Origin: Roseicella sp. DB1501
Lineage (GTDB): Bacteria; Pseudomonadota; Alphaproteobacteria; Acetobacterales; Acetobacteraceae
NCBI RefSeq assembly: GCF_013112485.1
Contig: NZ_JABFHG010000002.1
Coordinates: 186,001 to 250,000, forward strand
DNA length: 64,000 bases
Reading direction: 5' to 3'
Shown: positions 35,620 to 54,628 of the stretch, one piece after another
Layout of the letters: every line of letters starts with the position of its first letter
Position numbering within the stretch: position 1 is the stretch's first letter
Program-made: the position numbers and the translations under genes
The notes under the pieces: generated by a model
Databases searched by the model: none
Told to the model about the DNA's origin: nothing
What the model saw: the letters and a program-made list of their open reading frames with translations, nothing else

Positions 35620-36414
35620 TCAGCCGGCGTTCGCCACCGCGCGCTTGGCCATGACAGTGACGAGGTGCGCGCGGTACTCGGCGCTGCCATGGATGTCGCC
35701 GTTCAGCTCGTCCGGGGCCTGCTTGATGCCGGCCACCGCATCCGCCGACCAGTTGGCCGCGAGCGCCTTCTCCATCTCCGCCTGGCGGAAGACGCCGGGG
35801 CCGGCGCCGTTGACGACGACGCGCACGCCGGACTTCGTCTTGGCGACGAAGACGCCGGCCATGACGTAGCGGCTGGCCGGGTTGCGCATCTTGGCGTAGC
35901 CAGCCTTCTCGGGAATCGGGAACTCGATCGCCACCAGCAGCTCGCCCGGCTCCAGCGCCGTGGTGAACATGCCCTGGAAGAAGTCATCGGCGGCGATGCG
36001 GCGCTTGTCGGTGACGACCGTCGCATCGAGGCCGAGCACCGCCGCCGGGTAGTCCGCCGCCGGGTCGTTGTTCGAGACGCTGCCGCCGATGGTGCCGCGG
36101 TTGCGCACCTGGGTGTCGCCGATGGTGGAGGCCATCTGGGCGAGCGCCGGGATCGCCGCCTGCACCTCGGGGCTGTTCGCCACCTCGCCATGCTTGGCGA
36201 GCGCGCCGATGACGAGCTTGTCGCCCTCGCGCCGGATGCCCTTCAGCTCGGCGATGCCGGAGAGGTCGACCACCGCGGTCGGCTTGTTGAGCCGGTGCTT
36301 CAGCGCCGGCAGCAGGGTCTGGCCGCCGGAGATCGGCCGCGCATCCGGATCGGCCGAGAGGATCTTGACGGCATCCGCGACGGTGGTCGGCTTGTGATAG
36401 GCGAAATCATACAT
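35620..36414 (-). CDS. molybdenum hydroxylase FAD-binding subunit (CoxM-like)
   Basis: The 264-residue subunit passes electrons from the iron-sulfur subunit to FAD and on to an acceptor. FAD contacts are visible in ARPISGGQTLLPALKHRL (near 28-45) and TIGGSVSNNDPAADYPA (near 100-116). It starts MYDFAYHKPTTVADAV as is usual for this family. AGGAGG is 10-11 bases before ATG 36414. It is the last of three subunit genes (2Fe-2S, Mo, FAD). Confidence 0.9.
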   Translation of the reverse strand: MYDFAYHKPTTVADAVKILSADPDARPISGGQTLLPALKHRLNKPTAVVDLSGIAELKGIRREGDKLVIGALAKHGEVANSPEVQAAIPALAQMASTIGDTQVRNRGTIGGSVSNNDPAADYPAAVLGLDATVVTDKRRIAADDFFQGMFTTALEPGELLVAIEFPIPEKAGYAKMRNPASRYVMAGVFVAKTKSGVRVVVNGAGPGVFRQAEMEKALAANWSADAVAGIKQAPDELNGDIHGSAEYRAHLVTVMAKRAVANAG

Positions 36415-36509
36415 GGGAAAGGCTCCTCCTCGCACGGGCCGCTCGGTCTGCACCTCCGGGAGGCCGGCGCGCTGCCGCGCCTCCCTCCGGCGACCGGTCG
36501 GCCGATCTC

Positions 36510-38894
36510 CTACTCCGCCGCCAGCCTTTGGCCGGCATGGATGATGCCCCAGATCTTGGCCGGCGTCGCCGGCATCTCGATATGGCGGACGCCGAAGTCC
36601 CGCAGCGCATCGACCACGGCATTGATGACCGCGGGCGGCGAGCCGATGGCCCCCACCTCGCCGCAGCCCTTCACCCCGAGCGGGTTGTGGGTGCAGAGCG
36701 TGGTGTGGGTGGCGACGCTGACCGGCGGCAGGTCGTTCGCCCGCGGCATCTGATAGTCCATGAAGCTGGCCGAGAGGAGCTGCCCGCTCTCGTCATAGAC
36801 CGCGGTCTCGAGCAGCGCCTGGCCGATGCCCTGGGCGACGCCGCCCTGCACCTGGCCCTCGACGATCATCGGGTTGATGACCCGGCCGACATCGTCGACG
36901 GCGGTGAAGTTCACCACCTCCACCTGGCAGGTATCGGGATCGATCTCGACCTCGCAGATATGGCAGCCGCCGGGATAGGTGAAGTTCTTCGGGTCGTAGA
37001 AGGCGGTCTCGTCGAGGCCCGGCTCGATCTCCTCGATCGGGTAGTTGTGCGGCACATAGGCGGTCAGGCAGATCTCGCCCCAGCTTTTCGTCTTGTCGGT
37101 GCCGGCGACGCGGAAGGTACCGCGGTCGAATTCGACATCCTCGACCGAGGCCTCCATCAGATGCGCCGCGATGCGCCGCGCCTTGGCGACGATCTTGTCC
37201 ATCGCCTTCACCATGGCGCTGCCGCCGACGGCGAGGCTGCGGGAGCCGTAGGTTCCCATGCCGAAGGGGATCTTCGCCGTGTCGCCATGCACGATGTCGA
37301 CCTGCGCCAGCGGCACGCCGAGCCGGTCCGTCACCAGCTGCGCCAGCGTCGTCTCGTGCCCCTGGCCATGGCTGTGGGTGCCGGTCAGCACCGTGACGCT
37401 GCCGGTCGGATGCACCCGGATCGTGCCCACCTCGTAGAGCCCGGCCCGGGCGCCGAGGGCGCCGACCACGGCCGAGGGGGCGATGCCGCAGGCCTCCAGA
37501 TAGGTGGAGATGCCGATGCCGCGCAGCTTGCCGCGGGCCTTGGCCTCGGCGCGGCGGGCCTCGAAGCCGTCCCAGCCGCTGACCTTCAGCGCCTCCTGCA
37601 GCGTCGCCTCGTAGTCGCCGCTGTCATATTGCAGCGCGACCGGCGTCTGGTAGGGGAAGGCATCCGCCGGGATGAAGTTGCGCCGGCGGATCTCGATGCG
37701 GTCCATGCCCATCTCGCGCGCCGCGACATCGACCAGGCGCTCGAGCAGGAAGGTCGCCTCCGGCCGGCCGGCGCCGCGATAGGCATCGACCGGCACGGTG
37801 TTGGTGAAGACCGCCTTCACCTCGGCATAGACGGTCGGCGTGGTGTACACGCCGGCCAGCAGCGTCGCGTAGAGATAGGTCGGCACGCTGGTTGAGAAGG
37901 TCGAGAGATAGGCGCCCATATTGGCGAGCGTCTGCACGTGCAGCGCCAGAAACCGCCCCTCGGCATCAAGAGCGAGCCGCGCCTTCGTCACATGGTCGCG
38001 GCCATGCGCGTCGGTGACGAAGCTCTCGGTGCGGTCGGCGGTCCATTTCACCGGCCGGGCGATCTTGCCGGCCGCCCAGGTGACGATCGCCTCCTCGGCA
38101 TAGTGGAAGATCTTGCTGCCGAAGCCGCCGCCGACATCGGGCGCCACCACCCGCAGCTTGTGCTCGGGCAGCTGCAGGACGAAGGCGCCCATCAGCAGCC
38201 GGATGACATGCGGATTCTGGCTGGTGGTGTAGAGTGTGTAGTCGCCCGTCGTCGGGTCGAAGTCGCCGATCGCCGCGCGCGGCTCCATGGCGTTCGGCAC
38301 CAGGCGGTTGTTGACCAGCTCGAACTCGACGACCTTGTGCGCGCCCTGGAAGGCGGCGGCGTTCACCGCCGGGTCGCCGATATGCCAGTCGTAGCAGACA
38401 TTGCCGGCGACGCCCTCATGCACGGCCGGCGCCCCGGGGGCGAGCGCCGCCTCCATGGTGGCGACGGCCGGCAGGACCTCGTACTCGACCTCGATCGCCT
38501 CCGCCGCGTCGCGCGCCGCCGCCCGCGTCGTGGCGATCACCGCCGCGACGGCATCACCGACGAAGCGCACCTTGCCCTGGGCGAGCACCGGATGCGGCGG
38601 CTCGGCCATGGGCGAGCCATCCTTGTTGTGGATCTGCCAGCCGCAGGGCAGCCCGCCGATCCCCTGCATGTCGGCGCCGGTGAAGATCGCCACGACGCCG
38701 GGCATCGCCTTCGCCGCGGTGGTGTCGATCCCCTTGATCGCGGCATGCGCATGCGGGCTGCGGAGGATATGGGCGTAGGTCTGGCCGGGACGGTTGATGT
38801 CGTCCGTGTACTGGCCGCGGCCGGAGAGGAAGCGCAGATCCTCCTTGCGCTTCACGCTCGCCCCGATGCCCTCGAAGGGTGTCACCACATTCAT
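36510..38894 (-). CDS. molybdenum hydroxylase large subunit, CO dehydrogenase form II type
   Basis: The 794-residue catalytic subunit binds the molybdopterin cytosine dinucleotide cofactor. It has [19 protein letters not shown] at the start, [17 protein letters not shown], and the active-site loop AYRGAGRPE at 371-379. True (form I) CoxL has AYRCSFR here, so the Cys that binds copper is absent and CO oxidation is unlikely. The substrate is probably another small molecule hydroxylated next to nitrogen or a carbonyl. The catalytic Glu lies in [19 protein letters not shown] near the end. GGGAGG seven bases before ATG 38894 fixes the start. Confidence 0.9.
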
Positions 38895-39011
38895 CGCCAC
38901 GCCTCCCAACGCAGCAGGATCGCCTCGCCGCGCGGGTCGCGCCCGCGCGGTCGGACAGTCCCGTCAATCACCCTGCGGCACAGCCCGGCGCCCCGTGGCG
39001 CGCCAGGCGGC

Positions 39012-39515
<504 letters not shown>

Positions 39516-39637
39516 CCCGCGTCTCCCCCGGTTCCGGCGGCCGCACGGCCGCGTATCGTCTCAAAGGTTGCCCCGCCCCGGGCTTCCGTCAAGCGGCGGC
39601 GAGGCGGTCAGCCCAGCGGTGGTCAAGCCGGCGCCGG

Positions 39638-39955
39638 TCAAGCCGGCGGTCTGGGCCCGACTGGCGGCGGCGCCTCGATCAGCCGCTTGCGCCCGCGGGT
39701 CAGGATGAGCAGGAGGCCGAGCACCAGGGTACCGAGCGGCCACAGCACCCAGAGAGTGCCGAGCGCCATGGCGCCGAACATGCCGGCCCCCATGGCCACT
39801 TCCGGATCGGCCCGCGACAGGAAGGGCCCGACCGCGGCGCAGGTGCCGAGGCTGCCAAGCAGCATCAGCGCCTGGAAGGTCCAGAAGGTCCCTCGCACCG
39901 CCCGGCCGACCCGGCCGCGCCGCTCGCGGACCTCCAGCAGCACCCGCTCGGCCAT
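39638..39955 (-). CDS. small membrane protein of unknown function
   Basis: The 105-residue protein has a basic N-terminus and three hydrophobic segments (about 22-45, 53-70, 68-88), and ends in a Pro-rich tail. No family is recognised. It follows the peptide transporter ATPase gene by 14 bases in the same direction, so it may be the last gene of that operon. Confidence 0.6.
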   Translation of the reverse strand: MAERVLLEVRERRGRVGRAVRGTFWTFQALMLLGSLGTCAAVGPFLSRADPEVAMGAGMFGAMALGTLWVLWPLGTLVLGLLLILTRGRKRLIEAPPPVGPRPPA

Positions 39956-39969
39956 GGCGGGGCCGGCGC

Positions 39970-41010: not shown

Positions 41011-41999
41011 GCCGCGAGAGCCTCGTCTTTCTGGGCGTAGTGGCAGGCGGCGACGTGGCCGGGCGCCTTCTCCTCGAGGGCAGGCGCCACCTTGCGGCAG
41101 AGATCGGTCACCTGCGGGCAGCGGCTGGCGAAGACGCAGCCCGGGATCTTCTGCTTGAGGCTCGGCACCAGGCCGGGAATCTCGGCCAGCCGGCCCTCAT
41201 CGCCGTGCAGGGAGGAGCCGAGCTTCGGCATCGAGCCGAGCAGGCCCTGGGTATAGGGATGCTTCGGGTGGTTGAAGAGCGGGCCGACCGCCGCCTCCTC
41301 CACCTTGCGCCCGGCATACATGACGATGACGCGCTCGGCGACCTCGGCGACCACGCCGAGATCATGGGTGATGAGCACGATCGCCGCGCCGACTCGCCGC
41401 TTCAGGTCGCGCATCAGCTCGAGGATCTGCGCCTGGATGGTGACGTCCAGCGCCGTGGTCGGCTCGTCGGCGATCAGCAGCTTCGGATTGCAGGCCAGCG
41501 CGATGGCGATCATCACCCGCTGCCGCATGCCGCCCGAGAGCTGGTGCGGATATTCCCGCACCCGCCGCCGCGGCTCGGGGATGCCGACGAGCGTCAGCAT
41601 CTCCACCGCCTTCTCCTCCGCCTGCCGGGCCGAGAGGCCCTGGTGCAGGCGCAGCGTCTCGCCGATCTGCCGCCCGACGGTGAGCACCGGGTTCAGGCTC
41701 GTCATCGGCTCCTGGAAGATCATGCTGATCTCGTTGCCGCGGATGGCGCGCATCTCGCGGTCCGAGAGCGTCAGCAGATCGCGGCCCTGGAAGCGGATGG
41801 CGCCGGCGATCTTGCCCGGTGGCTCGGGGATGAGCCGCAGGATCGACATGGAGGTGACCGACTTGCCGCAGCCGCTCTCGCCGACGATCGCCACCGTCTC
41901 GCCGGCATTGACGTGGAAGGTCACGCCGTCCACGGCGCGGTTGATCCCATCCGGCGTGCGGAAATGGGTCTGCAGGTTCTCGACTTCGAGGAGCGCCAT
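41007..41999 (-). CDS. peptide ABC transporter ATP-binding protein (DppD/OppD type)
   Basis: The 330-residue ATPase has Walker A GESGCGKS, signature [16 protein letters not shown] and Walker [13 protein letters not shown]. The C-terminal [17 protein letters not shown] region is typical of OppD/DppD. It begins 3 bases after the permease DppC-type gene. Together with the next ATPase it powers the permease pair encoded upstream. Confidence 0.94.
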
Positions 42000-42002
42000 G
42001 GA

Positions 42003-42935
42003 TCAGAGCCTCTTCGCCATGCGCGGGTCGAGCGCATCGCGCAGGCCATCGCCGAGGAGATTCACGGCGAGGACGGTGATGGAGAGGAAGACGGCGGGGA
42101 AGAAGACGATGTAGGGCTTGACCTGCCAGAGCGCCCGGCCCTCGGCCATGATGTTGCCCCAGGAAGGGATGATCGGCGGCGTGCCGGCGCCGATGAAGGA
42201 GAGGATGGCCTCGGTGATCATCGCCGCGGCGCAGATATAGGTCGCCTGCACGGTGATCGGCGCCAGGGTGTTCGGCAGGATGTGGCGCAGGATGATGGCG
42301 GGCGTCCGGGTACCGGCCGCGACCGCCGCCTCGACATAGGGCTGCTCGCGCAGCGAGAGCACGACGCCGCGCACCAGGCGCGAGACGCGCGGGATCTCGG
42401 CGATGGTGATGGCGATGATGACGTTCTGCACCGAGCCGCGGGTCAGCGCCATGAGGGCGATGGCCAGCAGGATCGGCGGGATCGACATCAGCCCGTCCAT
42501 CACCCGCATGATGACGCTGTCGAGCAGGCGGACATAGCCCGAGACCATGCCGATCGTGAGGCCGACGACGGAGGACAGGATCGCCACCGAGAAGCCGACG
42601 ATGAGCGAGACCCGCGCCCCGTAGAGCACGCGGGAATAGACGTCCCGGCCCAGCATGTCGGTGCCGAACCAGTAGAGCGCGGATGGCTCGCGCGTCCGCT
42701 TCGCCGGCGCCAGCGCCGTCGGGTCGACCGTGCCGAGCAGCGGGGCGAAGATGGCGACCAGCACCATCAGCAGCAGCAGCCCGGCGCCGAAGGCCATGGT
42801 GGGGTTGCGCCGGAGGAAGCCGATGAAGCCCTTCCTCGGCTTCACCGGCGGCAGCACGTCCGGCAGCGGGGCGGCGGCGGCGACGCCCGGCGGCGTCGCG
42901 GCGTCGAGGGGGGAGAGGACGCTCGCGGAGGCCAT
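42003..42935 (-). CDS. peptide ABC transporter permease (DppC type)
   Basis: The 310-residue inner-membrane protein has the N-terminal membrane segment ([20 protein letters not shown]), the DppC-typical [19 protein letters not shown], and the EAA loop [21 protein letters not shown]. Its ATG shares a base with the DppB stop. The first 40 residues are a Pro-rich cytoplasmic extension. Confidence 0.94.
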
Positions 42936-43876
42936 CAGTAGCGGATCCTCGGATCGAAGAGAGTATAGGCGAGGTCAATCAACAGATTGACGAGCACATA
43001 GACGAAGCTGAAGAGCAGCACGACGCCCTGGATCACCGGATAGTCGCGCCGCAGGATGGCATCCACCGTGAGGCGGCCGAGGCCGGGGATGGCGAAGACA
43101 CTCTCGGTCACCACCGCGCCGCCGATGAGCAGCGCGATGCCGATGCCGATCACGGTCACGATGGGCACGGCGGCATTCTTCAGCGCGTGCAGGAACAGGA
43201 TGCTGCTCTGCCCGGCGCCCTTGGCGCGCGCGGTGCGGATGTAGTCCTGCTGCAGCACCTCGAGCATGGTGGCCCGGGTGATGCGGGCGATCAGCGCGAT
43301 GTAGACGCCGCCCAGCGCGATCGCCGGCAGCACCAGGTTCTCGAGCCAGGGCAGCACGCCGTTGCTGAGCGAGGTGTAGCCCTGCACCGGCAGCCAATCG
43401 AGCTCGAGCGCGAAGACATAGGCGAGCAGGTAGCCGACGACGAAGACCGGCACCGAGAAGCCGAGCACCGCGAAGCCCATCACCGCGCGGTCGATCAGCG
43501 TGCCCTGCTTCCAGGCCGCGACCACGCCCATGGGAACGGCGATGAGGATGGCGAGCACCAGCGTCAGCGCCATCAGCGACAGGGTCGGCTCGATCCGCTG
43601 CGCGATCATGGTGGTGACCGGCAGGTTGGTGAAGATCGAGGTCCCCATATCGCCGTGCAGGATCGCCCAGAGCCAGGTGCCGAAGCGCACCAGATAAGGC
43701 CTGTCGAGGCCGAGCGAGGCGCGGATGCGCTCGACATCCTGCGGCGTCGCCTGGTCGCCGGCGATCACCGCCGCCGGGTCACCGGGCGAGATGTAGAGCA
43801 GGGAGAAGACGAAGAGCGCGACCAGCGCCATCACCGGGATGGTCTGCAGGACGCGCCGGATGACATAAGCGAACAT
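42935..43876 (-). CDS. peptide ABC transporter permease (DppB type)
   Basis: The 313-residue membrane protein begins MFAYVIRRVLQTIPVMALVAL, as DppB proteins do, with the ISPGDPAAVIAGDQATPQDV periplasmic segment. The EAA-like loop is DYIRTARAKGAGQSSILFLH. It follows binding protein 1 by 18 bases. It is the only permease pair for the six upstream binding-protein genes in the window. Confidence 0.95.
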   Translation of the reverse strand: MFAYVIRRVLQTIPVMALVALFVFSLLYISPGDPAAVIAGDQATPQDVERIRASLGLDRPYLVRFGTWLWAILHGDMGTSIFTNLPVTTMIAQRIEPTLSLMALTLVLAILIAVPMGVVAAWKQGTLIDRAVMGFAVLGFSVPVFVVGYLLAYVFALELDWLPVQGYTSLSNGVLPWLENLVLPAIALGGVYIALIARITRATMLEVLQQDYIRTARAKGAGQSSILFLHALKNAAVPIVTVIGIGIALLIGGAVVTESVFAIPGLGRLTVDAILRRDYPVIQGVVLLFSFVYVLVNLLIDLAYTLFDPRIRY

Positions 43877-43894
43877 GATGCGGTGTCCCGGCGG

Positions 43895-45496
43895 TCAGGA
43901 TTTGGTCACGCCCCAGAAGATGGGCAACGGCCCCTTCTGGATGCCGGAGATGTTGGAGCGCCAGGCCTGATAGGTGAGGAAGAAGCCGGTCGGCGCGTAG
44001 ACGACGTTCTCGATCGCCGCCTTGTTCAGGCGCCGGATCGCCGCCTTCTCGGTCTCGAGGTCGGGGGCGTCGAACCAGTTCGCCACCTCGGTCTCCACTT
44101 CCGGCACCTTCGGCCAGCCGAACCAGGCGCCGTCGCCATTGGCGCGGATGGCGATGTAGACAGCCGGGTTGATGCAGTCGGCGCCGGCATGCCAGGAGTG
44201 GAACATGCTCCAGCCGCCCTGCCCCACCGGATTCTTCATGGCGCGGCGCTGGCCGGTGGTGCCCCAGTCGGTGGCGACGAAGTCGACGTTGAAGCCGATC
44301 CGCTTCAGCAGGTCGGCCGTCACGTCGCCCTGTGACTTGGTGATCGGCTGGTCCTGCGCGACGATGCAGGGCACCGGCTCGCCCTTGTAGCCGCTCTCGG
44401 CCAGCAGGCGCTTGGCGAGGTCGAGGTTGCGCGGCCCCTTCAGGACGTCGCCGCCCTCCTCGGTGTAGAGCGGCGTGCCCGGCGTGAAATAGCCCGGCAG
44501 CGGCTTCCACAGCTTGTCGTCGTCGCCGACCAGCGCCCGCATGTAGTCTTCCTGTGACAGGGCGACCATCACCGCCTGCCGCGCCTTCAGCGAGTTGAAG
44601 GGCGTGGTCAGGTGGTTCATACGGAAGGTGCCGACATTGCCGAGCGGGTCGGCGATGTCGGCGCGGATGTTGCGGTTGCGCCGAAGCGTAGGCACCAGAT
44701 CGGTGATGGGGTTCTCCCACCAGTCGATCTCGCCGTTCTGCAGCGCGGCGGCGGCTGTCGCCGGGTCTGGCATGACGATCCATTCGACGCGGTCGATGTT
44801 GATCACCTTGCCGCCGGCGAGCCAGCTCGGCTTCTCCTGCCGCGGCTGGTAGTCGGCGAATTTCTCGAACACCGCCTTGGCGCCCGGCACCCATTCGTTG
44901 CGCAGGAAGCGCATCGGGCCGGAGCCGACATACTCCGTGATCTGCTGGAACGGATCGGTCCTGGCGATGCGCTCCGGCATGATGAAGGCCATCGGCGTCG
45001 AGTTCTTGCCGAGCGCCATCAGCAGCTTCGGATAAGGCTTCTTCAGCACCCAGCGGAAGCTGCGGTCATCGACCGCCACCAGCTCCTGCTGCAGCGCCTT
45101 CAGCATCAGCCCCATGGAATCGCGGGCGGACCAGCGCGTCAGGCTCGCCACCACGTCGCGCGAGGTCACCGGGCTGCCATCGTGGAATTTGAGACCGGAG
45201 CGCAGCTTGAAGGTCCAGGTGAGGCCGTCCGAGGACACCTCCTCGGACTCCACCATCTGGCGTTGCGGGCGCAGCTCCTCGTCGAAGCCGTAGAGCGTGT
45301 CCCAGACCAGCGCCGCCGCGTTGCGGACGACGTATTGCGTGCCCCAGATCGGGTCGAAATTGGCCAGGTTGGCCTGCGGCACGAAGCGCAGGGTGCGCGC
45401 GGCCGCGCCCTGGGACAGCGCCGGCGCCGGCCGGCCGCCGAGCAAGGCGGCACCGCCGGCCGCAACGCCGGTCTTCAGGAAATTCCTGCGGTCCAT
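43895..45496 (-). CDS. peptide-type ABC solute-binding protein 1 (family 5)
   Basis: The 533-residue periplasmic protein starts with a twin-arginine signal (MDRRNFLKTGVAAGGAALLG). Like all members of the array, it has RFVPQANLANFDPIWGTQYV after the signal, GLKFHDGSPVTSRDVVASL, GSGPMRFLRNEWVPG and, near the end, an FDAPD motif and QAWRSNISGIQKGPLPIFWG. It is closest to the permease genes and probably the default partner. GGGAGACGACA precedes the ATG. Confidence 0.93.
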   Translation of the reverse strand: MDRRNFLKTGVAAGGAALLGGRPAPALSQGAAARTLRFVPQANLANFDPIWGTQYVVRNAAALVWDTLYGFDEELRPQRQMVESEEVSSDGLTWTFKLRSGLKFHDGSPVTSRDVVASLTRWSARDSMGLMLKALQQELVAVDDRSFRWVLKKPYPKLLMALGKNSTPMAFIMPERIARTDPFQQITEYVGSGPMRFLRNEWVPGAKAVFEKFADYQPRQEKPSWLAGGKVINIDRVEWIVMPDPATAAAALQNGEIDWWENPITDLVPTLRRNRNIRADIADPLGNVGTFRMNHLTTPFNSLKARQAVMVALSQEDYMRALVGDDDKLWKPLPGYFTPGTPLYTEEGGDVLKGPRNLDLAKRLLAESGYKGEPVPCIVAQDQPITKSQGDVTADLLKRIGFNVDFVATDWGTTGQRRAMKNPVGQGGWSMFHSWHAGADCINPAVYIAIRANGDGAWFGWPKVPEVETEVANWFDAPDLETEKAAIRRLNKAAIENVVYAPTGFFLTYQAWRSNISGIQKGPLPIFWGVTKS

Positions 45497-45676
45497 TGTC
45501 GTCTCCCAGTTCCGGCCCGGACGCGCCCGCTGCGCCCGGTTTCCAGCCAGCCTGCCTTAAGCTTAGGCAGGGCGCCAGCATCCATCGGTTGCCGCCCTGG
45601 CCCGGCGACAGCCGGCTTGCTCTCGGCTCGATGGACTTGCACGCGCCATGCCAGCAAACGCGCCGGATCGCGCCCT
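45497..45676 (-). other. 180-base spacer with a hairpin in the binding-protein array
   Basis: CCTGCCT (45551-45557) pairs with AGGCAGG (45565-45571) around TAAGCTT. In a long operon such a hairpin could end or trim part of the transcript so that gene 1 and the permease are expressed separately from genes 2-6. No T-run follows on the minus strand, and no promoter is convincing. Confidence 0.35.
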
Positions 45677-47251
45677 TCAGTCCTTCGCCACGCCCCAGAA
45701 CACCGTGGCGGGGGCGCGGAAGGCGCCCGTCACCTTGCGGTTCCAGGCGGAGGGCTGCCAATAGAAGCCGAGCGGGAGGTAGGGCAAGACCTCCATCGCC
45801 CGGCGGTTCAGCGCCTCCGCCACCTGGCGTTGCATCGCCAGGTCGGGCGCCGCGATCCAGGCGGCGCGCAGCCGCTCGATCTCCGCATCTCGCGGCCAGC
45901 CGAACCAGGCGGCATCGCCATTCGCCCGCAGGAACAGGTGGAAGACCGGCAGGCTGAGCGACTGGCCGGAGGCGGTGGTGTGGATCAGGCTCCAGCCGCC
46001 CTTCTCCACCGGCTCGCGGCTCGTCCGCCGCTGCACCAGCGTGCCCCAGTCGGTCGAGACGAGCTCGAGGTTCATCCCCATCCGCTGCAGCAGATCGGCG
46101 GTGACGAGCGAGAGGGCGTTGATCTGCGGATAGTCGCCCGGGGCGACGAGCACGACCTTCTCATTGGCATAGCCAGCCTCGCGCAGCGCCGTCCGGGCCC
46201 GGTCGAGGCTGCGCGTCTTCAGCACCTCGCTGCCGGCCCCGTTCGCCAGCGGGCTGTTGCAGGCGAAGACGCCCTCGCAGGTCTCCCAGCCGCCGGGCTC
46301 GTTGCCGGCGACGGCGCGCATGTAGTCGCGCTGGTCGATCGCCAGCGCCAGGGCGCGACGGATGCCCGGATTGTCGAAGGGCGGCTGCAGGTGGTTGAAG
46401 CGGCAGATGCCGTAGGTGCCGTCGAGCAGCCGCTGCTCCACCACCAGCTCGCGCGAGCGGCGCAGCAGCGGCAGCAGGTCGTGCAGCGGGTATTCCCAGT
46501 AATCCTGCTCGCCGGTGACCATGGCATTCGCCGCCGTCGCGGGATCGGAGATCACCGTCCATTCGACGCGGTCGAGCCGCGGCGCGCGGCCGCCGGCGAG
46601 CCCGTCCACCGGCTCCTGGCGCGGCAGGTAGCCGTCGAACCTCGCCCAGACGGCGCGCTGCCCCGGGTTCCACTCATCGGCGAGGAAGCGGAAGGGGCCG
46701 CTGCCCACCGCGTCGCGCAATTGCTGGAAGGCATCCGTCGCGGCGAGCCGCTCGGGCATGACGAAGCAGGGGAATTGCGTCTGGCCCAGCGCCATGAGGA
46801 GCAAGGGCAGCGGCTTGTGCAGGCGGAAGCGGAAGCGGCGGTCGTCGAGCGCTGTCACCTCCGCCACATCCGGCCAGAGCACCTGCATGAACGGGTCGCG
46901 CCGCGCCCAGCGCCGGATGCTGGCGACGCAGTCCCGCGCCCGCACCGGCTCGCCGTCATGGAAGCGCAGGCCCTCGCGCAGGGTGAAGGTCCAGGCGAGG
47001 CTGTCCGCCTCCACCACCCAGCCCTCGGCCATCTGCGGCCGGATCGTGCCCTGCGCGTCCTGGGCGCAGATCTGGTCGTAGACCATGAAGGCGTGGTTGC
47101 GGGTGACCACGGCGGTGGTCCAGACCGGATCGAGGCTGGTGAGGTTGGCCTGCGGCACGACGCGCAGCCTTCCCGCCCCGGGCGTCGCGGCGAGCGCGGG
47201 CGCCGCGAGGCCCAGGGCGAACGGCGTCTGCAACAGGCCGCGACGGCGCAT
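45677..47251 (-). CDS. peptide-type ABC solute-binding protein 2 (family 5)
   Basis: The 524-residue periplasmic paralogue has signal MRRRGLLQTPFALGLAAPALA. It shares RVVPQANLTSLDPVWTTAVV, GLRFHDGEPVRARDCVASI, GSGPFRFLADEWNPG and STDWGTLVQRRTSREPVEKG with the others. It ends in GAFRAPATVFWGVAKD. It follows gene 3 by 3 bases. Sequence differences from gene 1 lie in the cleft-lining middle region, so ligand preference probably differs. Confidence 0.92.
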   Translation of the reverse strand: MRRRGLLQTPFALGLAAPALAATPGAGRLRVVPQANLTSLDPVWTTAVVTRNHAFMVYDQICAQDAQGTIRPQMAEGWVVEADSLAWTFTLREGLRFHDGEPVRARDCVASIRRWARRDPFMQVLWPDVAEVTALDDRRFRFRLHKPLPLLLMALGQTQFPCFVMPERLAATDAFQQLRDAVGSGPFRFLADEWNPGQRAVWARFDGYLPRQEPVDGLAGGRAPRLDRVEWTVISDPATAANAMVTGEQDYWEYPLHDLLPLLRRSRELVVEQRLLDGTYGICRFNHLQPPFDNPGIRRALALAIDQRDYMRAVAGNEPGGWETCEGVFACNSPLANGAGSEVLKTRSLDRARTALREAGYANEKVVLVAPGDYPQINALSLVTADLLQRMGMNLELVSTDWGTLVQRRTSREPVEKGGWSLIHTTASGQSLSLPVFHLFLRANGDAAWFGWPRDAEIERLRAAWIAAPDLAMQRQVAEALNRRAMEVLPYLPLGFYWQPSAWNRKVTGAFRAPATVFWGVAKD

Positions 47252-47254
47252 GGC

Positions 47255-48832
47255 TCAGGCCCTCCGGATGCCCCAGAAAATGGCGAAGCCCTTCACCCGG
47301 TCAACCAGCGTGCGGCGATGGGCGGTGATCGAATAATAGGCGCCCGTCGGGATGTAGGGCAGCCCCTGCATCGCCGCGAGCTGGATCCGCCGCGCCAGCG
47401 CCTGCCGCGCCGGCAGGTCCGGCGCGTCCAGCCAGGCGGCGCGCAGCCGCTCGACCTCCGGCAGGTCGGGCCAGCCCGGCGCCGCCTTCTCGCCATCGGA
47501 GCGGAGCTGCGCATGGGTGACGGGGTTGATGAAATCCATGCCGGATGATGCGAAGCAGGCGATGGACCAGCCCCCCTGGTCGAGCGGGCCGCGATTCATC
47601 CGCCGCTGCGCCAGCGTGCCCCAATCGCTCAGCACCACCTCGAGATTGAGGTCGAGCTGCCGCAGCAGATCGGCCGCCACCTGCGCCTGGGCGGTGGTGG
47701 AGACGATGTCGGTGGTGCCGAGCAGGCGCACCTTCTCGCCACGATAGCCGGCCTCCTTCAGCGCCTGCCGCGCCGCGGCGATGCTGCGCGGCCCGGTCAG
47801 CGGCGCCAGCCCGGCATCGTTGGCGAAGGGGCCGCCAGGGGTGAAGAAGCCGACGCCCGTCTCGAATTTCGCCGGCTCGGGGCCGACGATCGCGGTCATG
47901 AAATCCTCCTGGCTGATCGCCGGCAGGAAGGCGCGGCGGATCGCCGGGTTGTCGAAGGGCGGCTGGCGGTGGTTGAAGCGGAACTGGCCGGGCAACGGCA
48001 GCGGGTCGATCGGCTCGAGCAGCAGGCCGCGGTTGCGGCCGAGCAGCGTCTGGATCTCGGCCGGCATCTGCTCCAGCCAGTCCACCTCGCCCGCGCTCAG
48101 CGCCGCGGCGGCGGTGCCGGCATCGGGGATGATGGACCATTCGACGCGGTCGAAATGCACCAGCTTCGGCCCGGCGGTGAGGCCGCTGCCGCCGGCCGGC
48201 GTCGGCACGTAGTCCGGGTTACGCTCCCAGACCGCGCGGCTGCCCTGGCGGAACTCGTCCATGCGGAAGCGGAAGGGGCCGCTGCCGGTCGGGTCGCGGA
48301 TCTGCTGGAAGGGATCGGTCGCGGCGATGCGCGCCGGCATGATGAAGGGCTGCGGATTGGCCGGCATCGCCAGCGCCTCAATCAGCAGCGGGAAGCGCGC
48401 GCGCAGCCGGAAGCGGAAGCGCCGGTCGTCGAGCGCGGCGAGCTCCTCGGTGCGCGCCGCCAGCGCCTGGCCCATGGCGCTGCGCGCCATCCAGCGTCGC
48501 AGCGAGGCGACGCAATCCTCGGCCTGCACCGGCGCGCCATCGTGGAAGCGCAGCCCCTCGCGCAGGGTGATGGTGACGCTGCGGCCGTCCTCCTCCTCGA
48601 GATGGCCCGCCGCCATCTGCGGATGCACCCGGAAGGCCAGGTCCACGCCGAAGAGCGTGTCATAGACCATGTAGCCGTGGTTGCGGATGACGTTGGAAGT
48701 GACCGCGACGGGGTCCAGTCCGCCGAGATCGGCCTGCGGCACGAAGCGCAGCACGCGCGCCGCGGACTGCGAGAGCGCCGGCGCCGCCGGCAGCGTGGCG
48801 CCGGCGGCGAGCAAGGTGCGGCGCGCGATCAT
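47255..48832 (-). CDS. peptide-type ABC solute-binding protein 3 (family 5)
   Basis: The 525-residue paralogue begins MIARRTLLAAGATLPAAPALS. Array motifs are RFVPQADLGGLDPVAVTSNV, GLRFHDGAPVQAEDCVASL, GSGPFRFRMDEFRQG and SDWGTLAQRRMNRGPLDQGG. The start ATG 48832 overlaps the stop of copy 4 by 4 bases (ATGA), so its translation would normally be coupled to copy 4. Since copy 4 carries an early stop, coupling may be weakened. The frame is open far upstream, but that part is antiphase reading of copy 4. Confidence 0.9.
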   Translation of the reverse strand: MIARRTLLAAGATLPAAPALSQSAARVLRFVPQADLGGLDPVAVTSNVIRNHGYMVYDTLFGVDLAFRVHPQMAAGHLEEEDGRSVTITLREGLRFHDGAPVQAEDCVASLRRWMARSAMGQALAARTEELAALDDRRFRFRLRARFPLLIEALAMPANPQPFIMPARIAATDPFQQIRDPTGSGPFRFRMDEFRQGSRAVWERNPDYVPTPAGGSGLTAGPKLVHFDRVEWSIIPDAGTAAAALSAGEVDWLEQMPAEIQTLLGRNRGLLLEPIDPLPLPGQFRFNHRQPPFDNPAIRRAFLPAISQEDFMTAIVGPEPAKFETGVGFFTPGGPFANDAGLAPLTGPRSIAAARQALKEAGYRGEKVRLLGTTDIVSTTAQAQVAADLLRQLDLNLEVVLSDWGTLAQRRMNRGPLDQGGWSIACFASSGMDFINPVTHAQLRSDGEKAAPGWPDLPEVERLRAAWLDAPDLPARQALARRIQLAAMQGLPYIPTGAYYSITAHRRTLVDRVKGFAIFWGIRRA

Positions 48833-50409
48833 GCGCGCCGCAGGTTCCAGAACAGCGCGAAGCCCGGCACCCGCCCCTGGAGGTCGCGCCGCAGCGAGGT
48901 GAGCGAGGTGTAGGAGCCGACCGGGATATAGGGCAGCTCGTCCAACGCGGTGCGCTGGATGTCGCGGGCGATGCGCCTCTGCGCCTCGAGGTCCGGCGCC
49001 TCGAACCAGGCATCGCGCAGCTCCTCCAGCCGCGGCATGGTCGGCCAGCCGAACCAGGCGCTGGTCCCGTTGCCGCGCAGCGGGGAATTGCCGGCGGGAT
49101 CGGCGAATTCGAAAGAGGCGAAGGCGGTGAGGAAGACGCTCCAGCCGCCCTTCTCCACCGGCTCGCGGCTGGCCCGGCGCTGGATGACGCTGCCCTAATC
49201 GGTGAGGACGAAGTCGAGATTGACGCCGAGCCGGCGGAACATGTCGCCCGCCACCTGGGTCATCGCCGCCGGCGCCAGGATGTCGGTCGGGCCGATCAGG
49301 CGGATGAGCTGGTCCGTGTAGCCCGCCTCCTTCAGCAGCGCCTTGGCGCGGTCGATGCTGCGCGGCCCGGTCAGCGCTTCCATCCCGGCATCGTTGGCCA
49401 GCGGCGTGTCCGGGGTGAAGACGCCCATCGGGGCGAAGAGCGCCGGATCGGGCCCGACGATCGCCGTCATGTAGTCCGCTTGGTCGATCGCCGGCAGCAG
49501 GGCTTGGCGCATCTTCCTGTCGTTGAAGGGCGGGTGCAGGTGGTTGAAGCGCAGGATCGCCGGGTTGCGCAGCCGGTCGATCGGCTCGACGGTGATCTGC
49601 CGGTTGCGACGGAAGAGCTCCTGGATCTCCGGCGGCGGCTGCTCGTACCAGTCGATCTCGCCGGCCTGCAGCGCCGCCGAGGCGGTCGCGGCATCGACGA
49701 TGATGTGCCATTCGATGCGGTCGAAATGGGCCCGCTTCGGCCCGGCCGTCAGGCTCGGCTCGCCGCTGCTGACAGGTACGTAGTCCGGGTTGCGCTGATA
49801 GGCGACGAAGCTGCCGGAATTGTAGTCCCGCGCCAGGAAGCGGAAGGGTCCGCTGCCCACCGTCTCCTGGATCTGCTGATAGGGATCGGTGCGGGCGATC
49901 CGCTCCGGCATGATGAAGGCGGCCGGGTTGGTGGGCGTCGCCAGCGCCTGCAGCAGCATCGGGAAGCGCCGCTTCAGCCGGAACCGGAGACGCCGGTCGT
50001 CGAGCGCCGAGAGCTCTTCGATCGCCGGCTCCAGCTTCTGGCCGATGCTGCTGCGCTTCATCCAGCGCCGGAGGGAGGCGACGCAATCCGCCGCCCGCAC
50101 CGGCTCGCCATCATGGAAGCGCAGCCCCTCCCGCAGCGTGATGGTGCAGAGGCGGTCGTCATCCTCGAAGACCTGCCCGGCCGCCATCTGCGGTTGCGGC
50201 CGGAACTGCGCATCCATGCCGTAGAGCACGTCGTAGACGAGCCAGGCATGGTTGCGGGTGACATTGGCCGTGGTCCAGATCGGATCCAGGCTGGTCAGAT
50301 TGGCCTGTGGCACGAATTTCAGCACGCGGCTGCCCGCGGGCTGGCCAACGGCCAGGCGCGGCAGGGTCGCCGCCGCGGCCGTGCCGGCGAGGAATTCGCG
50401 TCGATGCAT
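48829..50409 (-). pseudogene. peptide-type solute-binding protein 4, interrupted by TAG
   Basis: Two in-frame pieces (49198-50409, 404 residues, and 48829-49194) make one full-length family 5 binding protein. The signal MHRREFLAGTAAAATLPRLA and all array motifs are intact. The break is a single TAG at 49195-49197 where every paralogue has Trp in the motif D-W-G or D-W-A (VLTD-stop-GSVIQRRASREPVEKG). One G-to-A change of TGG explains it. There is no frameshift, deletion or second stop, so the event looks recent. A truncated 404-residue product would lack the last quarter of lobe II. A sequencing error or suppression cannot be excluded. Confidence 0.85.
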
Positions 50410-50433
50410 CGCTTGCTCCGCCTCCGCCCGGCT

Positions 50434-52026
50434 TCAGGCGGTCTTCTTGATGCTCCAGAAGAGCGGCATGCCCTTCGGCACGTCGCTGAGGCTGCGCCGA
50501 TAGGCCGTGGCCTGGAAGTACTGGCCGAGCGGCAGGGTCGGCGCCTCCTCGAAGGCCGCGAGTTGCATCTCGCGTGCCAGGGGTTTCTGGGCGGCGAGGT
50601 CGGGCGCGTCGAACCAGCGCTGCCGCAGCGCCTCCAGCCGCTCCGAGCTGGACCAGCCCCACCAGCCATCCTTGCCATTGCCGCGGATCGGCTGGTTGAC
50701 GCCGGGATTGATGACGTCGAGCCCGGTCCAGAAGGTGAAGAACATGCTCCAGCCGCCCTTCTCCACCGGCTCGCGGCTCGCGCGGCGGGCGACGACGCTG
50801 GCCCAGTCGGTGGCGACGAACTCGACATTCATGCCGCAGCGGCGGAGCATGTCGTTGCCGACCTGCCCGAGCGCGTTCAGAGTCGGGAAATCGGTCGCGG
50901 CGAGCAGCACGACCTTCTCGCCCTTGTAGCCGGCGGCGGCGATCTCGCGCTTCACCTTGTCGACGTCGCGCGGGCCCTTCAGCACCTCGAGCCCGGCATC
51001 GCTCGCCAGCGGCGTCTCCGGCGGGAAGAAGCCGACGCCGTCGCGCCAGAGGCTGCGATCGGTGCCGGTTACCGCCACCATGTAGTCCTCCTGGCTCACC
51101 GCGCCCATCAGGGCCCGGCGGATGCCCGGATTGTCGAAGGGCGGATGCAGGTGGTTGAAGCGGCCCCAACCGACCAGCCCGGTCGGGTTCGGGTTGTCGA
51201 TGCGGATGTTGCGGTTGCCCTGCAGCACCGGCAGCAGGTCCGAGGTCGGCACCTCCCACCAATCCGTCTCGCCGTTCTGCAACGCGGCGCCGGCAGTGGC
51301 CGGATCGGGGGTGACGATCCATTCCACCCGGTCGAGATTCACCCGCTTCGGCCCGGAGGTCCAGCTCGGCGTGCCCTGCTCGCGCGGGCGGTACTCGGCG
51401 AAGCGTTCATAGACGAAGCGGCTGCCCTGAATGCGCTCATCCGCCTTGAAGCGGAAGGGGCCGCTGCCGATCATCTCGGTGACCGGCTTCGAAGCATCCG
51501 TCTTCGCCAGCCGCTCGGGCATGATGAAGCAGCAGGGCGTCACCAGGCTGCCCAGTGCCTCAGCCAGCATCGTATAGGGACGCTTGAGGCGGAAGACGAT
51601 GCGCCGGTCATCGGCCGCCGACATCTCGCCGAGCCGCGCGTTCAGCTCCTGTCCGAGCGGGTGCCGCGCCGCCCAGCGCCGGATGGAGGCGACGCAGTCC
51701 TGCGCCCGCACCGGCGAGCCGTCATGGAATTGCAGCCCGGGCCGCAGCGTGATGGTCCAGCGCAACCCGTCCTCCTCGACCACGTGGCCCTCGGCCATCT
51801 GCGGCGTCACGCGGAACTCCGCATCCATGCCGTAGAGCGTGTCGAAGACCATGAAGCCGTGATGGCGGGTGACATAGGCGGTGGTGATGTGCGGATCGAG
51901 GATGCCGAGATCCGATTGCGGGATGAACTTCAGCAGCCGTGCCGCTGCCGGCTGCGCCAGCGCCGGGGCCGCGAGGCCGCCCAGCGCCAGCCCCGCGCCG
52001 CCCAGGAGAATATCGCGTCGCTGCAT
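50434..52026 (-). CDS. peptide-type ABC solute-binding protein 5 (family 5)
   Basis: The 530-residue paralogue begins MQRRDILLGGAGLALGGLAA, with KFIPQSDLGILDPHITTAYV, GLQFHDGSPVRAQDCVASI and GSGPFRFKADERIQG. ATDWASVVARRASREPVEKG has Ala where the others have Gly after the conserved Trp. Two adjacent Cys in TPCCFIMPERLA are unusual. GGAGG eight bases before ATG 52026 sets the start. It is closest to copy 6 by eye. Confidence 0.92.
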   Translation of the reverse strand: MQRRDILLGGAGLALGGLAAPALAQPAAARLLKFIPQSDLGILDPHITTAYVTRHHGFMVFDTLYGMDAEFRVTPQMAEGHVVEEDGLRWTITLRPGLQFHDGSPVRAQDCVASIRRWAARHPLGQELNARLGEMSAADDRRIVFRLKRPYTMLAEALGSLVTPCCFIMPERLAKTDASKPVTEMIGSGPFRFKADERIQGSRFVYERFAEYRPREQGTPSWTSGPKRVNLDRVEWIVTPDPATAGAALQNGETDWWEVPTSDLLPVLQGNRNIRIDNPNPTGLVGWGRFNHLHPPFDNPGIRRALMGAVSQEDYMVAVTGTDRSLWRDGVGFFPPETPLASDAGLEVLKGPRDVDKVKREIAAAGYKGEKVVLLAATDFPTLNALGQVGNDMLRRCGMNVEFVATDWASVVARRASREPVEKGGWSMFFTFWTGLDVINPGVNQPIRGNGKDGWWGWSSSERLEALRQRWFDAPDLAAQKPLAREMQLAAFEEAPTLPLGQYFQATAYRRSLSDVPKGMPLFWSIKKTA

Positions 52027-52188
52027 TGCCCGGCCTCCGCCTTCTTCGTCACGCTTCTCGTGGTCCGTGCGGCACACTAGACCATGCGGCGCGCCGCCTT
52101 TCCAGGCGGCGCGCCACGCCATTCATGTATCGAATCATTGTCGCGCAACCTTGGGCGACGCAGCGTCACCGCGCGCCGCCCGGCGGCA
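52027..52188 (-). other. 162-base spacer with an 11-bp hairpin
   Basis: GGCGCGCCGCC (52088-52098) pairs perfectly with GGCGGCGCGCC (52105-52115), loop of 6. It lies between copies 6 and 5 of the array. AT-rich sequence at 52120-52145 could hold a promoter for copy 5 downstream on the minus strand. Whether the hairpin terminates or attenuates cannot be told; there is no T-run. Confidence 0.45.
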
Positions 52189-53778
52189 TCAGCCCTTCCT
52201 GACGTTCCAGAACATCGGCAGGCCGTTCAGCACGCCGCTGATATTGGTCCGGTAGGTCCAGGGCTGGAAATACTGCCCGGCCGGGATGTAGGGCACCTCG
52301 CGCATCCCCTCCTCCTGGATCTCGCGGGCGATCCGCTGCTGCTCGGCGAGGTTCGGCGCGTCGAGCCATTCGCTGCGCAGCGCCTCCAGCTTCGGCATGG
52401 TCGGCCAGCCAAACCAGGCGTTCAGCCCATTGCCGCGCAGGCCGAGATGCCCGGCCGGGCTGAAGAAGTCGAGCCCGGTGAAGAAGGTGAGGAAGATGCT
52501 CCAGCCACCCTGGTCCGGCGGGTTGCGGTTGGCGCGGCGGGTGACGACGCTGCCCCAGTCGGTGGCGACGAAGTCGACATTCATGCCCGACTTCTGCAGC
52601 ATGTCGAGGCAGACCTGCCCGAGCGCGTTGAGCGAGGGGAAATCCGTGGCGGCGATCAGCACCACCTTCTCCCCCTTGTAGCCGGCGGCGGCGAGGTCGC
52701 GCCTGACCTTCGCGTAGTCGCGCGGCCCCTGCAGCGGCGCCAGCCCGACATCGGAGGCGAAGGGCGTGCCGGGCGGGAAGAAGCCGACATTGTCCCGCCA
52801 GGTGCTGGGATCGGTGCCGATCACCGCCGTCATGTAGTCCGCCTGGTTGGTGGCGCCGAGCAGGGCGCGGCGGATCCCGGGATTGTTGAAGGGCGGATGC
52901 AGGTGGTTGAAGCGGCAGAGTGCCATCAGCCCGGTCGGGTCATAGGCCTCGACCTTGATGTTGCGGTTGCGCTTGAGCAGCGGCAACAGATCGGCGGTCG
53001 GCTGCTCCCACCAGTCCATCTCGCCAGATTGCAGCGCACCGGCGGCGGTCGAGGCATCCGGGATCACATGCCACTCGACACGGTCGAAATTCGCCCGCTT
53101 CGGCCCCGACGTCCATTCCACGCTGCCGCCCTCGCGCGGCAGGTAATCCGGATTGCGCTCATAGACCACGAGGCTGCCGGGCACCCGCTCGTCGCCCTTG
53201 AATCGGAAGGGGCCGGAGCCGATGACCTCCTTGATCGGCGTGTTCGCATCCGTCTGCGCGATCCGCTCGGGCATGATGAAGCAGACCGGGCTGCCGGGCT
53301 TGGCCAGGGCATCGAGGAGCAGCGCGAAAGGCTTCTTCAGCCGGAAGGTCAGGGTGCGGTCATCGGTCGCGGCCAGTTCCTCGGTCGCGGCGGCCAATGC
53401 CTGGCCCATCGCGTCCCGCTGCCACCAACGCTTGATGCTGGCCACGGCATCCTTTGCCAGCACCGGCGCGCCGTCATGGAATTTGAGGCCGGAGCGCAGC
53501 GTGATGCTGACGCGCCGACCATCCTCCTCCACCCGGTGGCCCTCGGCCATCTGCGGCTGCGGCTTGAATTGCGCGTCCATGCCATAGAGCGTGTCGTAGA
53601 CGACGAAACCATGGTTGCGGGTGACATAGGCGGTGGTGACGATGGGATCGATCACCGCGACATCGGCCTGCGGGATGAATTTCAGCACCCGCGCCCCGGC
53701 CGGCTGGGCCAGCGCCGGCGCGGCGAGCGGCAGGGTGGCCGCCCCGGCCGTGCCGAGGAGGAAGCTGCGACGATCCAT
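52189..53778 (-). CDS. peptide-type ABC solute-binding protein 6 (family 5)
   Basis: The 529-residue paralogue begins with a twin-arginine signal (MDRRSFLLGTAGAATLPLAA). It has KFIPQADVAVIDPIVTTAYV, GLKFHDGAPVLAKDAVASI, GSGPFRFKGDERVPG and ATDWGSVVTRRANRNPPDQG, and ends GVLNGLPMFWNVRKG. It is the promoter-proximal member of the minus-strand array. ATG 53778 is preceded by GGGAACGGGATC. The frame runs further upstream into the divergent gtrA leader without support. Confidence 0.92.
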   Translation of the reverse strand: MDRRSFLLGTAGAATLPLAAPALAQPAGARVLKFIPQADVAVIDPIVTTAYVTRNHGFVVYDTLYGMDAQFKPQPQMAEGHRVEEDGRRVSITLRSGLKFHDGAPVLAKDAVASIKRWWQRDAMGQALAAATEELAATDDRTLTFRLKKPFALLLDALAKPGSPVCFIMPERIAQTDANTPIKEVIGSGPFRFKGDERVPGSLVVYERNPDYLPREGGSVEWTSGPKRANFDRVEWHVIPDASTAAGALQSGEMDWWEQPTADLLPLLKRNRNIKVEAYDPTGLMALCRFNHLHPPFNNPGIRRALLGATNQADYMTAVIGTDPSTWRDNVGFFPPGTPFASDVGLAPLQGPRDYAKVRRDLAAAGYKGEKVVLIAATDFPSLNALGQVCLDMLQKSGMNVDFVATDWGSVVTRRANRNPPDQGGWSIFLTFFTGLDFFSPAGHLGLRGNGLNAWFGWPTMPKLEALRSEWLDAPNLAEQQRIAREIQEEGMREVPYIPAGQYFQPWTYRTNISGVLNGLPMFWNVRKG

Positions 53779-53950
53779 GATCCCGTTCCCGTCATGTGAA
53801 GCCGCGGCAAGGCAAGCCCGATCGTCGCGCCAGCGCAAGGGGGTCGTGCCGGCCGGCGGTGCGGTGCGGCCGCGGGCTGGCCAGGGATTGTCTGGACCTC
53901 CGCCCGGCGACGGATTATCGCCCTCGCCCATGCATGGACCGATCCCCGCG

Positions 53951-54424
53951 ATGACCGGGGCACCCCGTCGCGCCTCGCGCCTCGTCGCCGCCTGCCGGGC
54001 GCATCTGTCGCTGCTCCGCTCGTTGCTCCGCTTCGGAATCGTCGGGGTGGCCGGCTTTCTCGTCGATGCCGCCGTGCTGATGGGCGGGCTGTGGCTCGGC
54101 CTCGGCCCCTGGCTCGGCCGGGTGGTGTCCTACCTGGCCGCGGCCAGCACGACCTTCGCCCTCAACCGCGCCTGGACCTTCCGCGATGCGCCGCGCGCCG
54201 CGCCGCTGCGGCAATGGGCGCTGTTCCTGCTGGTCAACCTCGCCGGCTTCGCGGTGAATTATGGAACCTATGCCGCGCTGATCGCCAGCCTGCCCCTGGT
54301 CGCCGCGCATCCGGTGCTCGGCGTCGCCGCGGGGTCGCTCGCCGGGATGGCGGGGAATTTCATTCTCTCCCGGCGGCTGGTCTTCCGGGCCGCCCGCCCG
54401 GCGCTCGCCGCGGCGCGGGGCTGA
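53951..54424 (+). CDS. GtrA-like membrane protein
   Basis: The 157-residue protein has four membrane segments and the GtrA-family sequences LRFGIVGVAGFLVDAAVLMG and NRAWTFRDAP. It also has NLAGFAVNYGTYAAL and GNFILSRRLVFR. Family members are thought to flip polyprenol-linked sugars or assist glycosyltransferases in modifying cell-surface glycans. ATG 53951 and ATG 53930 are both possible; neither has a ribosome-binding site. The glycosyltransferase gene downstream is its likely partner. Confidence 0.85.
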   Translation: MTGAPRRASRLVAACRAHLSLLRSLLRFGIVGVAGFLVDAAVLMGGLWLGLGPWLGRVVSYLAAASTTFALNRAWTFRDAPRAAPLRQWALFLLVNLAGFAVNYGTYAALIASLPLVAAHPVLGVAAGSLAGMAGNFILSRRLVFRAARPALAAARG

Positions 54425-54426
54425 TG

Positions 54427-54511
54427 GCGACGGACCGGTCGAGTGACCGGTTCGAGGCCCCGAACGAGCCCCGCAGCTTATGCTGCGAAGCCAGGCGAAG
54501 CGGAGCTTCGC
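54427..54511. repeat. family C structured repeat, copy 2
   Basis: It starts 2 bases after the gtrA stop. GGACCGGTC pairs with GACCGGTTC (54432-54440, 54445-54453), then CGAGGCCCCGAACGAGCCC. Next are CGCAGC-TTAT-GCTGCG (54472-54487) and GCGAAGC-GGA-GCTTCGC (54495-54511). The first 45 bases match the copy at 4267. The second hairpin differs in sequence but is kept. The rest up to 54628 shows nothing further. Confidence 0.6.
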
Positions 54512-54628
54512 GCCCGGCGACGGAGGGCCATCGGTATGAGCCGCCGCGCTTCCGCCATGGTCGTGGTCTAATTGGGTCGCCGCATCCCCGCCGAGCCGCC
54601 GAGGATCCCCTGCCGCTGGAGCCGCCCC

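Follow-up and report, generated by a model that had tools for sequence, protein, structure and literature searches.

Here we report on a row of six family 5 solute-binding protein genes (receptors) in front of a single DppBCDF-type ATP-binding cassette importer in Roseicella sp. DB1501 (Acetobacteraceae). The row lies in a stretch of 64,000 nucleotides of contig NZ_JABFHG010000002.1 (positions 186,001 to 250,000), which is called the window and whose numbering is used throughout. Judged from sequence comparisons, the row is probably part of an old, slowly turning-over receptor repertoire that shares one importer. It reads as a long-standing stock whose members are dropped by individual lineages, and not as a fresh burst, because the receptor groups and their order span genera and the differences between loci are mostly read as losses.

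The six minus-strand genes are arranged head to tail from 53778 to 43895, as an earlier note made from the sequence had described, and in a whole-genome scan all match SBP_bac_5 (PF00496) above the Pfam cut-off (E-values 8.8e-65 to 8.1e-55). They are named from S1, which adjoins the permease, to S6, the outermost receptor and first gene of the array. S6 and S5 are separated by 162 bases, S5 and S4 by 24, S3 and S2 by 3, and S2 and S1 by 180; S4 and S3 overlap by 4 bases. After S1, on the same strand, stand one permease pair and one ATPase pair (39970-43876), again in agreement with the note. The locus thus has the DppABCDF layout, with receptor, permease pair and a pair of oligo_HPY ATPases in a single row, and as a conserved locus with more receptors than permeases it has the make-up of a multi-receptor, one-permease system. 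In a scan of nine proteins (S4 left out), all listed NCBIfam Dpp equivalog families stayed below their cut-offs, a statement that for the two ATPases covers the best 25 families.

The lengths of 524-533 codons given in the note are correct (533, 524, 525, 526, 530 and 529 codons for S1 to S6), but S4 is not a full-length open gene. Its codon 405 of 526 is an in-frame TAG within 'DWG', the most conserved motif of S4, so that the array holds five intact receptor genes. The site is intact in 7/7 orthologues from the relatives examined. Because the S4 frame is otherwise intact and under purifying selection relative to the nearest species (dN/dS 0.113), the stop is either a very fresh pseudogene mutation or a base-call error. 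Among the sequence motifs that the note listed as common to the six, FHDG-PV is indeed present in all, GSGPFRF in five (S1 has GSGPMRF) and DWG-RR in exact form in only four (S5 has DWA, and S4 has its stop there), and in S6 the first motif has V as its last residue instead of L. The receptors are paralogues, as proposed: they are pairwise 45-63% identical, far above chance, and include two pairs of sister groups (see below).

For comparison, the permease was searched in 200 Acetobacteraceae genomes, of which 119 matched at E <= 1e-85. From these, 103 places with a permease about 70-91% identical were taken and combined with four genus-mates and the window into a set of 108 loci; six places with less than 4 kb of contig upstream and most partial matches were left out. 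At 16 of the 108 loci the sequence ends too close to the outermost receptor for the row to be called complete, and 92 are uncut; some edges were extended. Broken copies were counted, and a gap of more than 1.5 kb terminated a row. Some of the named loci considered below are the same contigs. The uncut loci carry between zero and nine receptors (7, 24, 25, 5, 5, 9, 6, 8, 2 and 1 loci with 0, 1, 2, 3, 4, 5, 6, 7, 8 and 9 receptors, respectively), and array size at the orthologous permease therefore varies between relatives, as had been anticipated.

A FastTree phylogeny of 457 distinct receptors places most array members in groups corresponding to S1-S6 and in the groups Sx (33 members) and Sy (9 members), both with support 1.0. 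The groups cross genus borders; S6 of the window, for example, is 75% identical to S6 of Belnapia arida versus 63% to its own neighbour S5. Recent duplication in the window lineage is ruled out by this span. In an IQ-TREE analysis of 107 sequences, S3/S4 and S5/S6, each encoded by adjacent genes, are sister pairs with 100% ultrafast bootstrap, as tandem duplication predicts, and these pairs together with the conserved gene order rule out unrelated acquisitions.

The order S1-Sx-S2-S3-S4-S5-S6 is kept in 32/32 loci with at least three distinct unduplicated groups, with different members missing from different loci. Four further loci have duplicated groups: two carry S3 doubled in place, and in the other two S3 is preceded by an additional copy of S4 type. 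The position of Sy varies, as it stands between S5 and S6 in one genus-mate but farther out than S6 in two other loci (L024 and L029), and Sy was for this reason excluded from the order test. Dollo parsimony on a permease and ATPase protein tree gives 11, 9, 11, 7, 14, 3, 11 and 7 losses for S1, Sx, S2, S3, S4, S5, Sy and S6, counts that go up if any group was gained twice or transferred. Sx is missing from the window and from its nearest species (L002), whose S2 copy is truncated. In relatives Sx sits between S2 and S1; a search for its remnant in the S2-S1 gap gave no match inside Sx in the loci searched, only matches before S1. With the same groups in the same order across genera and differences that are mostly losses, the recent, lineage-specific local expansion proposed in the note does not hold. 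The note had also set against its own reading the combination of one-to-one orthologues and separate permeases: orthologues do occur in close relatives, but they stand before the orthologue of the same permease. In one branch (L043, L046, L048, L072 and L074) the orthologous permease has rows of six or seven whose groups partly differ (S1, S2, a second S1-type group, C11 and C8), a partly separate expansion.

In Bradyrhizobium, Bosea, Methylobacterium and Azorhizobium, where the permease is about 80-82% identical, exactly one receptor is found in 36/36 named loci, and all 36 of these single receptors fall within the S1 group. A second permease class at 17 places (L108-L124; nearly all 59-66% identical, one 52%) has one receptor in 16 loci and two in one, and its receptors form other clades. 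Among 385 genomes of the class, nine gave a match at E <= 1e-200, without a second row coming to light, a weak result with at most three candidates scored per genome.

Against 32 family 5 receptors, the genome has only six matches to the DppB-type N-terminal domain. Of the receptors outside the array, 6 have a permease domain on the same strand within 6 kb and 20 have none. Eight dispersed receptors form a clade with the array six (100, IQ-TREE) that excludes six sampled receptors of the second permease class, and the node of the array ancestor in the FastTree phylogeny contains the same eight (support 0.74); the six array receptors thus do not cluster exclusively with each other. It is plausible that dispersed receptors deliver to the array permease, because they belong to the array clade, because seven of the eight have no permease domain on the same strand within 6 kb, and because three of them (L213, L227 and L215) group at 97-100 with receptors that adjoin the orthologous permease in other genera.

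A pair of arginines within the first 12 residues, the twin-arginine pattern, is present in 423 of 426 receptor sequences; the Pfam model TAT_signal was applied to S1 only. Fold was examined for S6, whose AlphaFold2 model (mean pLDDT 91.3) has the family 5 fold and matches 8vdx, AgaA, YliB (GsiB), AapF, DppA, NikA and others in Foldseek. The nearest solved structure is 8vdx, a solute-binding protein of the betaproteobacterium Bordetella bronchiseptica (47% identity over nearly the full length); AgaA, YliB, AapF, DppA and others are about 20% identical. A literature search for 8vdx gave one paper, which is unrelated. In DppA of Escherichia coli, R383 and D436 hold the two ends of the dipeptide, according to the portion of the source available (PMC12136057). 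In a MAFFT alignment, with which hhalign agrees for S6, S1 to S6 have P, P, V, L, P and P in place of R383, and D, S, D, E, D and D in place of D436. Because the equivalent of R383 is replaced in all six, a DppA-like site for zwitterionic dipeptides is unlikely in the array receptors; longer peptides or amine-bearing compounds would still be admissible as ligands, because OppA and GsiB of E. coli likewise lack this arginine. In the loop beside the ligand-anchor position, single residues are fixed by group: W432 in 154/154 S1, T432 in 51/51 S2, M436 in 19/19 S3 and E434 in 33/33 Sx sequences.

Taken together, a mechanism can be proposed in which the intact receptors are exported through their twin-arginine start and each binds its own ligand or set of ligands in the periplasm. 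All would dock on the same permease, and the cell would thereby widen its imports through one channel. S1 and the permease would be the ancestral core with a conserved leader of its own, and the other receptors would be accessories that arose by tandem duplication and are given up when the niche changes; the window lineage has already lost Sx, and its S4 is interrupted by the stop.

In most of 30 aligned loci this leader can be recognised immediately in front of S1, irrespective of the preceding gene; it contains the inverted repeat TGCC-N9-GGCA. Its pattern, which was drawn from the very sequences counted, was found before 45 of 71 S1 genes in arrays of at least three receptors versus 4 of 327 receptor genes of other groups; it was also found before 8 of 55 other S1 genes and 4 of 41 single S1 genes of the rhizobial type. 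Some named and unnamed loci belong to the same species, which also makes these counts non-independent. This concentration before S1 suggests that S1-BCDF is a transcription unit of its own. A sigma-54 reading of the leader, made by eye, was dropped for wrong spacing; no sigma-70 consensus promoter was found in a scan of 38800-54600, and no known RNA family reached the gathering score in 34000-55500.

Several rival explanations of the row were weighed. The copies might all share one ligand and do no more than increase the amount of receptor; many residues are indeed invariant across the receptors, and several receptors stand in one gene row, yet we consider such a dosage effect improbable. The copies share no more than the identity given above and keep separate group-fixed residues across genera, dosage alone leaves the old one-to-one groups unexplained, and paralogues near one Dpp permease in Pseudomonas differ in profile, as stated in the available part of the report (PMC12728205). 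We give a similarly small chance to a decaying relic, in which the accessory receptors are out of use and random loss is under way. The stop in S4, the truncated S2 of the nearest species and the 3-14 Dollo losses per group would fit such decay, but dN/dS relative to the nearest species is 0.107-0.164 for the five receptors compared, S4 among them, and rows of seven to nine receptors persist in 11 of the 92 uncut loci. The receptors might finally serve several permeases in trans, with only S1 belonging to the array permease, for which speak the position of S1 as conserved core receptor and three DppBC-like permease-domain pairs in the genome without a nearby family 5 receptor. This is quite improbable, as the groups S2-S6 remain in the row at the orthologous permease across genera (not a full test, the loci having been chosen by this permease) and the receptors of the second permease class form other clades.

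Several observations weigh against a shared old repertoire, which we nevertheless prefer. Sharing of the permease is read from gene order, at loci that were all selected by this permease, and the three receptor-less pairs scoring like DppBC, one of which is 42% identical to the array permease, could take some of the receptors. The nodes of some groups are weak (S4 0.36 and S2 0.784 in FastTree, S6 61 in IQ-TREE), and the sister relation of S1 and S2 depends on the method, with support 1.0 in FastTree (457 sequences) and no recovery by IQ-TREE (107 sequences). Residues unique to groups show no significant clustering at the cleft loop, where a stretch of 15 residues holds 4 of the 22 (random test, P = 0.25). 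S4 is broken in the window, and its dN/dS relative to genome G003 is 0.351, the highest among the five receptors compared.

Table 1. Receptor array, importer genes and downstream genes in the window.
Feature	Position	Strand	Basis or remark
S6, family 5 solute-binding protein, 529 aa	52189..53778	-	PF00496 match, AlphaFold2 model
S5, family 5 solute-binding protein, 530 aa, sister group of S6	50434..52026	-	PF00496, tree
S4, family 5 solute-binding protein frame, 526 codons, broken	48829..50409	-	TAG at 49195-49197
S3, family 5 solute-binding protein, 525 aa, 4-base overlap with S4, sister group of S4	47255..48832	-	
S2, family 5 solute-binding protein, 524 aa	45677..47251	-	PF00496
S2-S1 intergenic stretch	45497..45676	-	conserved leader with inverted repeat in S1-proximal half
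S1, family 5 solute-binding protein, 533 aa, permease-proximal	43895..45496	-	PF00496, tree
DppB/OppB-type permease, 313 aa	42935..43876	-	PF00528 and PF19300
DppC/OppC-type permease, 310 aa	42003..42935	-	PF00528 and PF12911
DppD-type ATPase, 330 aa	41007..41999	-	PF00005 and PF08352
DppF-type ATPase, 346 aa	39970..41010	-	PF00005 and PF08352
Small hydrophobic ORF, 105 aa, between ATPase F gene and hydroxylase genes	39638..39955	-	tblastn
[2Fe-2S] subunit, molybdenum hydroxylase	39012..39515	-	PF01799
Large (molybdopterin) subunit, molybdenum hydroxylase	36510..38909	-	motif AYRGAGR
FAD subunit, molybdenum hydroxylase	35620..36453	-	PF00941

The genes downstream of the importer are listed in Table 1. 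Apart from the window, 17 of 107 relative loci give tblastn matches to the small hydrophobic open reading frame (ORF), which possibly belongs to the locus. The molybdenum hydroxylase lacks, in its large subunit, the motif AYXCSFR, which is the active-site motif of the aerobic CO dehydrogenase form I, and has AYRGAGR there instead, a motif that we assign to form II. Where the sequence extends 5 kb or more downstream, the small subunit of the hydroxylase is present in 39 of 40 loci with at least three receptors, in 17 of 26 that have two, in 6 of 20 that have one and in 4 of 5 that have none; in the 36 rhizobial loci, of which three have less than 3 kb downstream, no hydroxylase was seen. The linkage hints at a shared purpose of array and hydroxylase, and weakly suggests that the enzyme oxidises at least some of the imported compounds. 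A promoter-like element (TTGACG ... ACCTTT, 39563-39592, minus strand) precedes the [2Fe-2S] gene; 9 of 69 loci have it before the hydroxylase, and the 1.89 Mb of related loci contain no further copy. Because it occurs only there, the hydroxylase is probably transcribed separately, at least in the branch that bears the element. Two matches to TctC-type (tripartite tricarboxylate) receptors lie at 34612-35586, directly after the hydroxylase genes, and at 15156-16127 (minus strand).

Several receptors on one Dpp or Opp permease are already known from a few species. Pseudomonas aeruginosa has, as shown by experiment, five DppA paralogues (DppA1-A5) with distinct substrate profiles and one DppBCDF, according to the available parts of two reports (PMC12728205, PMC4206461), and thus resembles the array, where several family 5 paralogues likewise stand near a single DppBCDF set. 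There, as far as these parts go, four receptors lie near the permease amid other genes and one elsewhere, whereas here up to nine stand in one row; the order is conserved over many genera, related receptors are dispersed, and the carboxylate-binding arginine of DppA is missing from the six of the window. Borrelia burgdorferi has five receptors derived by duplication (OppA1-OppA5) for one Opp system, three of them in a chromosomal row with a promoter each, as given in the part of the source consulted (PMC5736914). Two receptors of Borrelia lie outside the chromosomal row, and the system belongs to another subfamily and phylum than the array described here. These two are located on plasmids. Devosia, also of the Alphaproteobacteria, is likewise rich in peptide-type transporters with diverse receptors; the accessible portion of that study (PMC6981132) describes all kinds of opp and dpp genes as abundant, whereas here only the receptors, not the permease, have multiplied, at a single permease locus. 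No description of this array in Acetobacteraceae was found by title or abstract start, in a search that left the subscription literature largely uncovered. As far as the literature was searched, three features are new: a row of this length, collinearity that is conserved across the family as members are gained and lost, and the presence of related dispersed receptors.

A further-reaching idea, put forward tentatively, is that of an exchangeable receptor cartridge, in which an ordered row with a lineage-specific subset, together with its eight dispersed kin (about fourteen receptor genes, one of them broken), would serve one channel, and some of the imports would feed the form II type hydroxylase. 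If this is true, one could read from the retained subset, as from a fingerprint, which small organic compounds each niche offers. The results also caution against naming such loci dipeptide transporters. The sharing of receptors by one ABC permease would here have a deep history, in an ordered array whose members are traceable through many genera, and the system appears suited to the question of how receptors change in specificity while keeping a docking surface for one permease.

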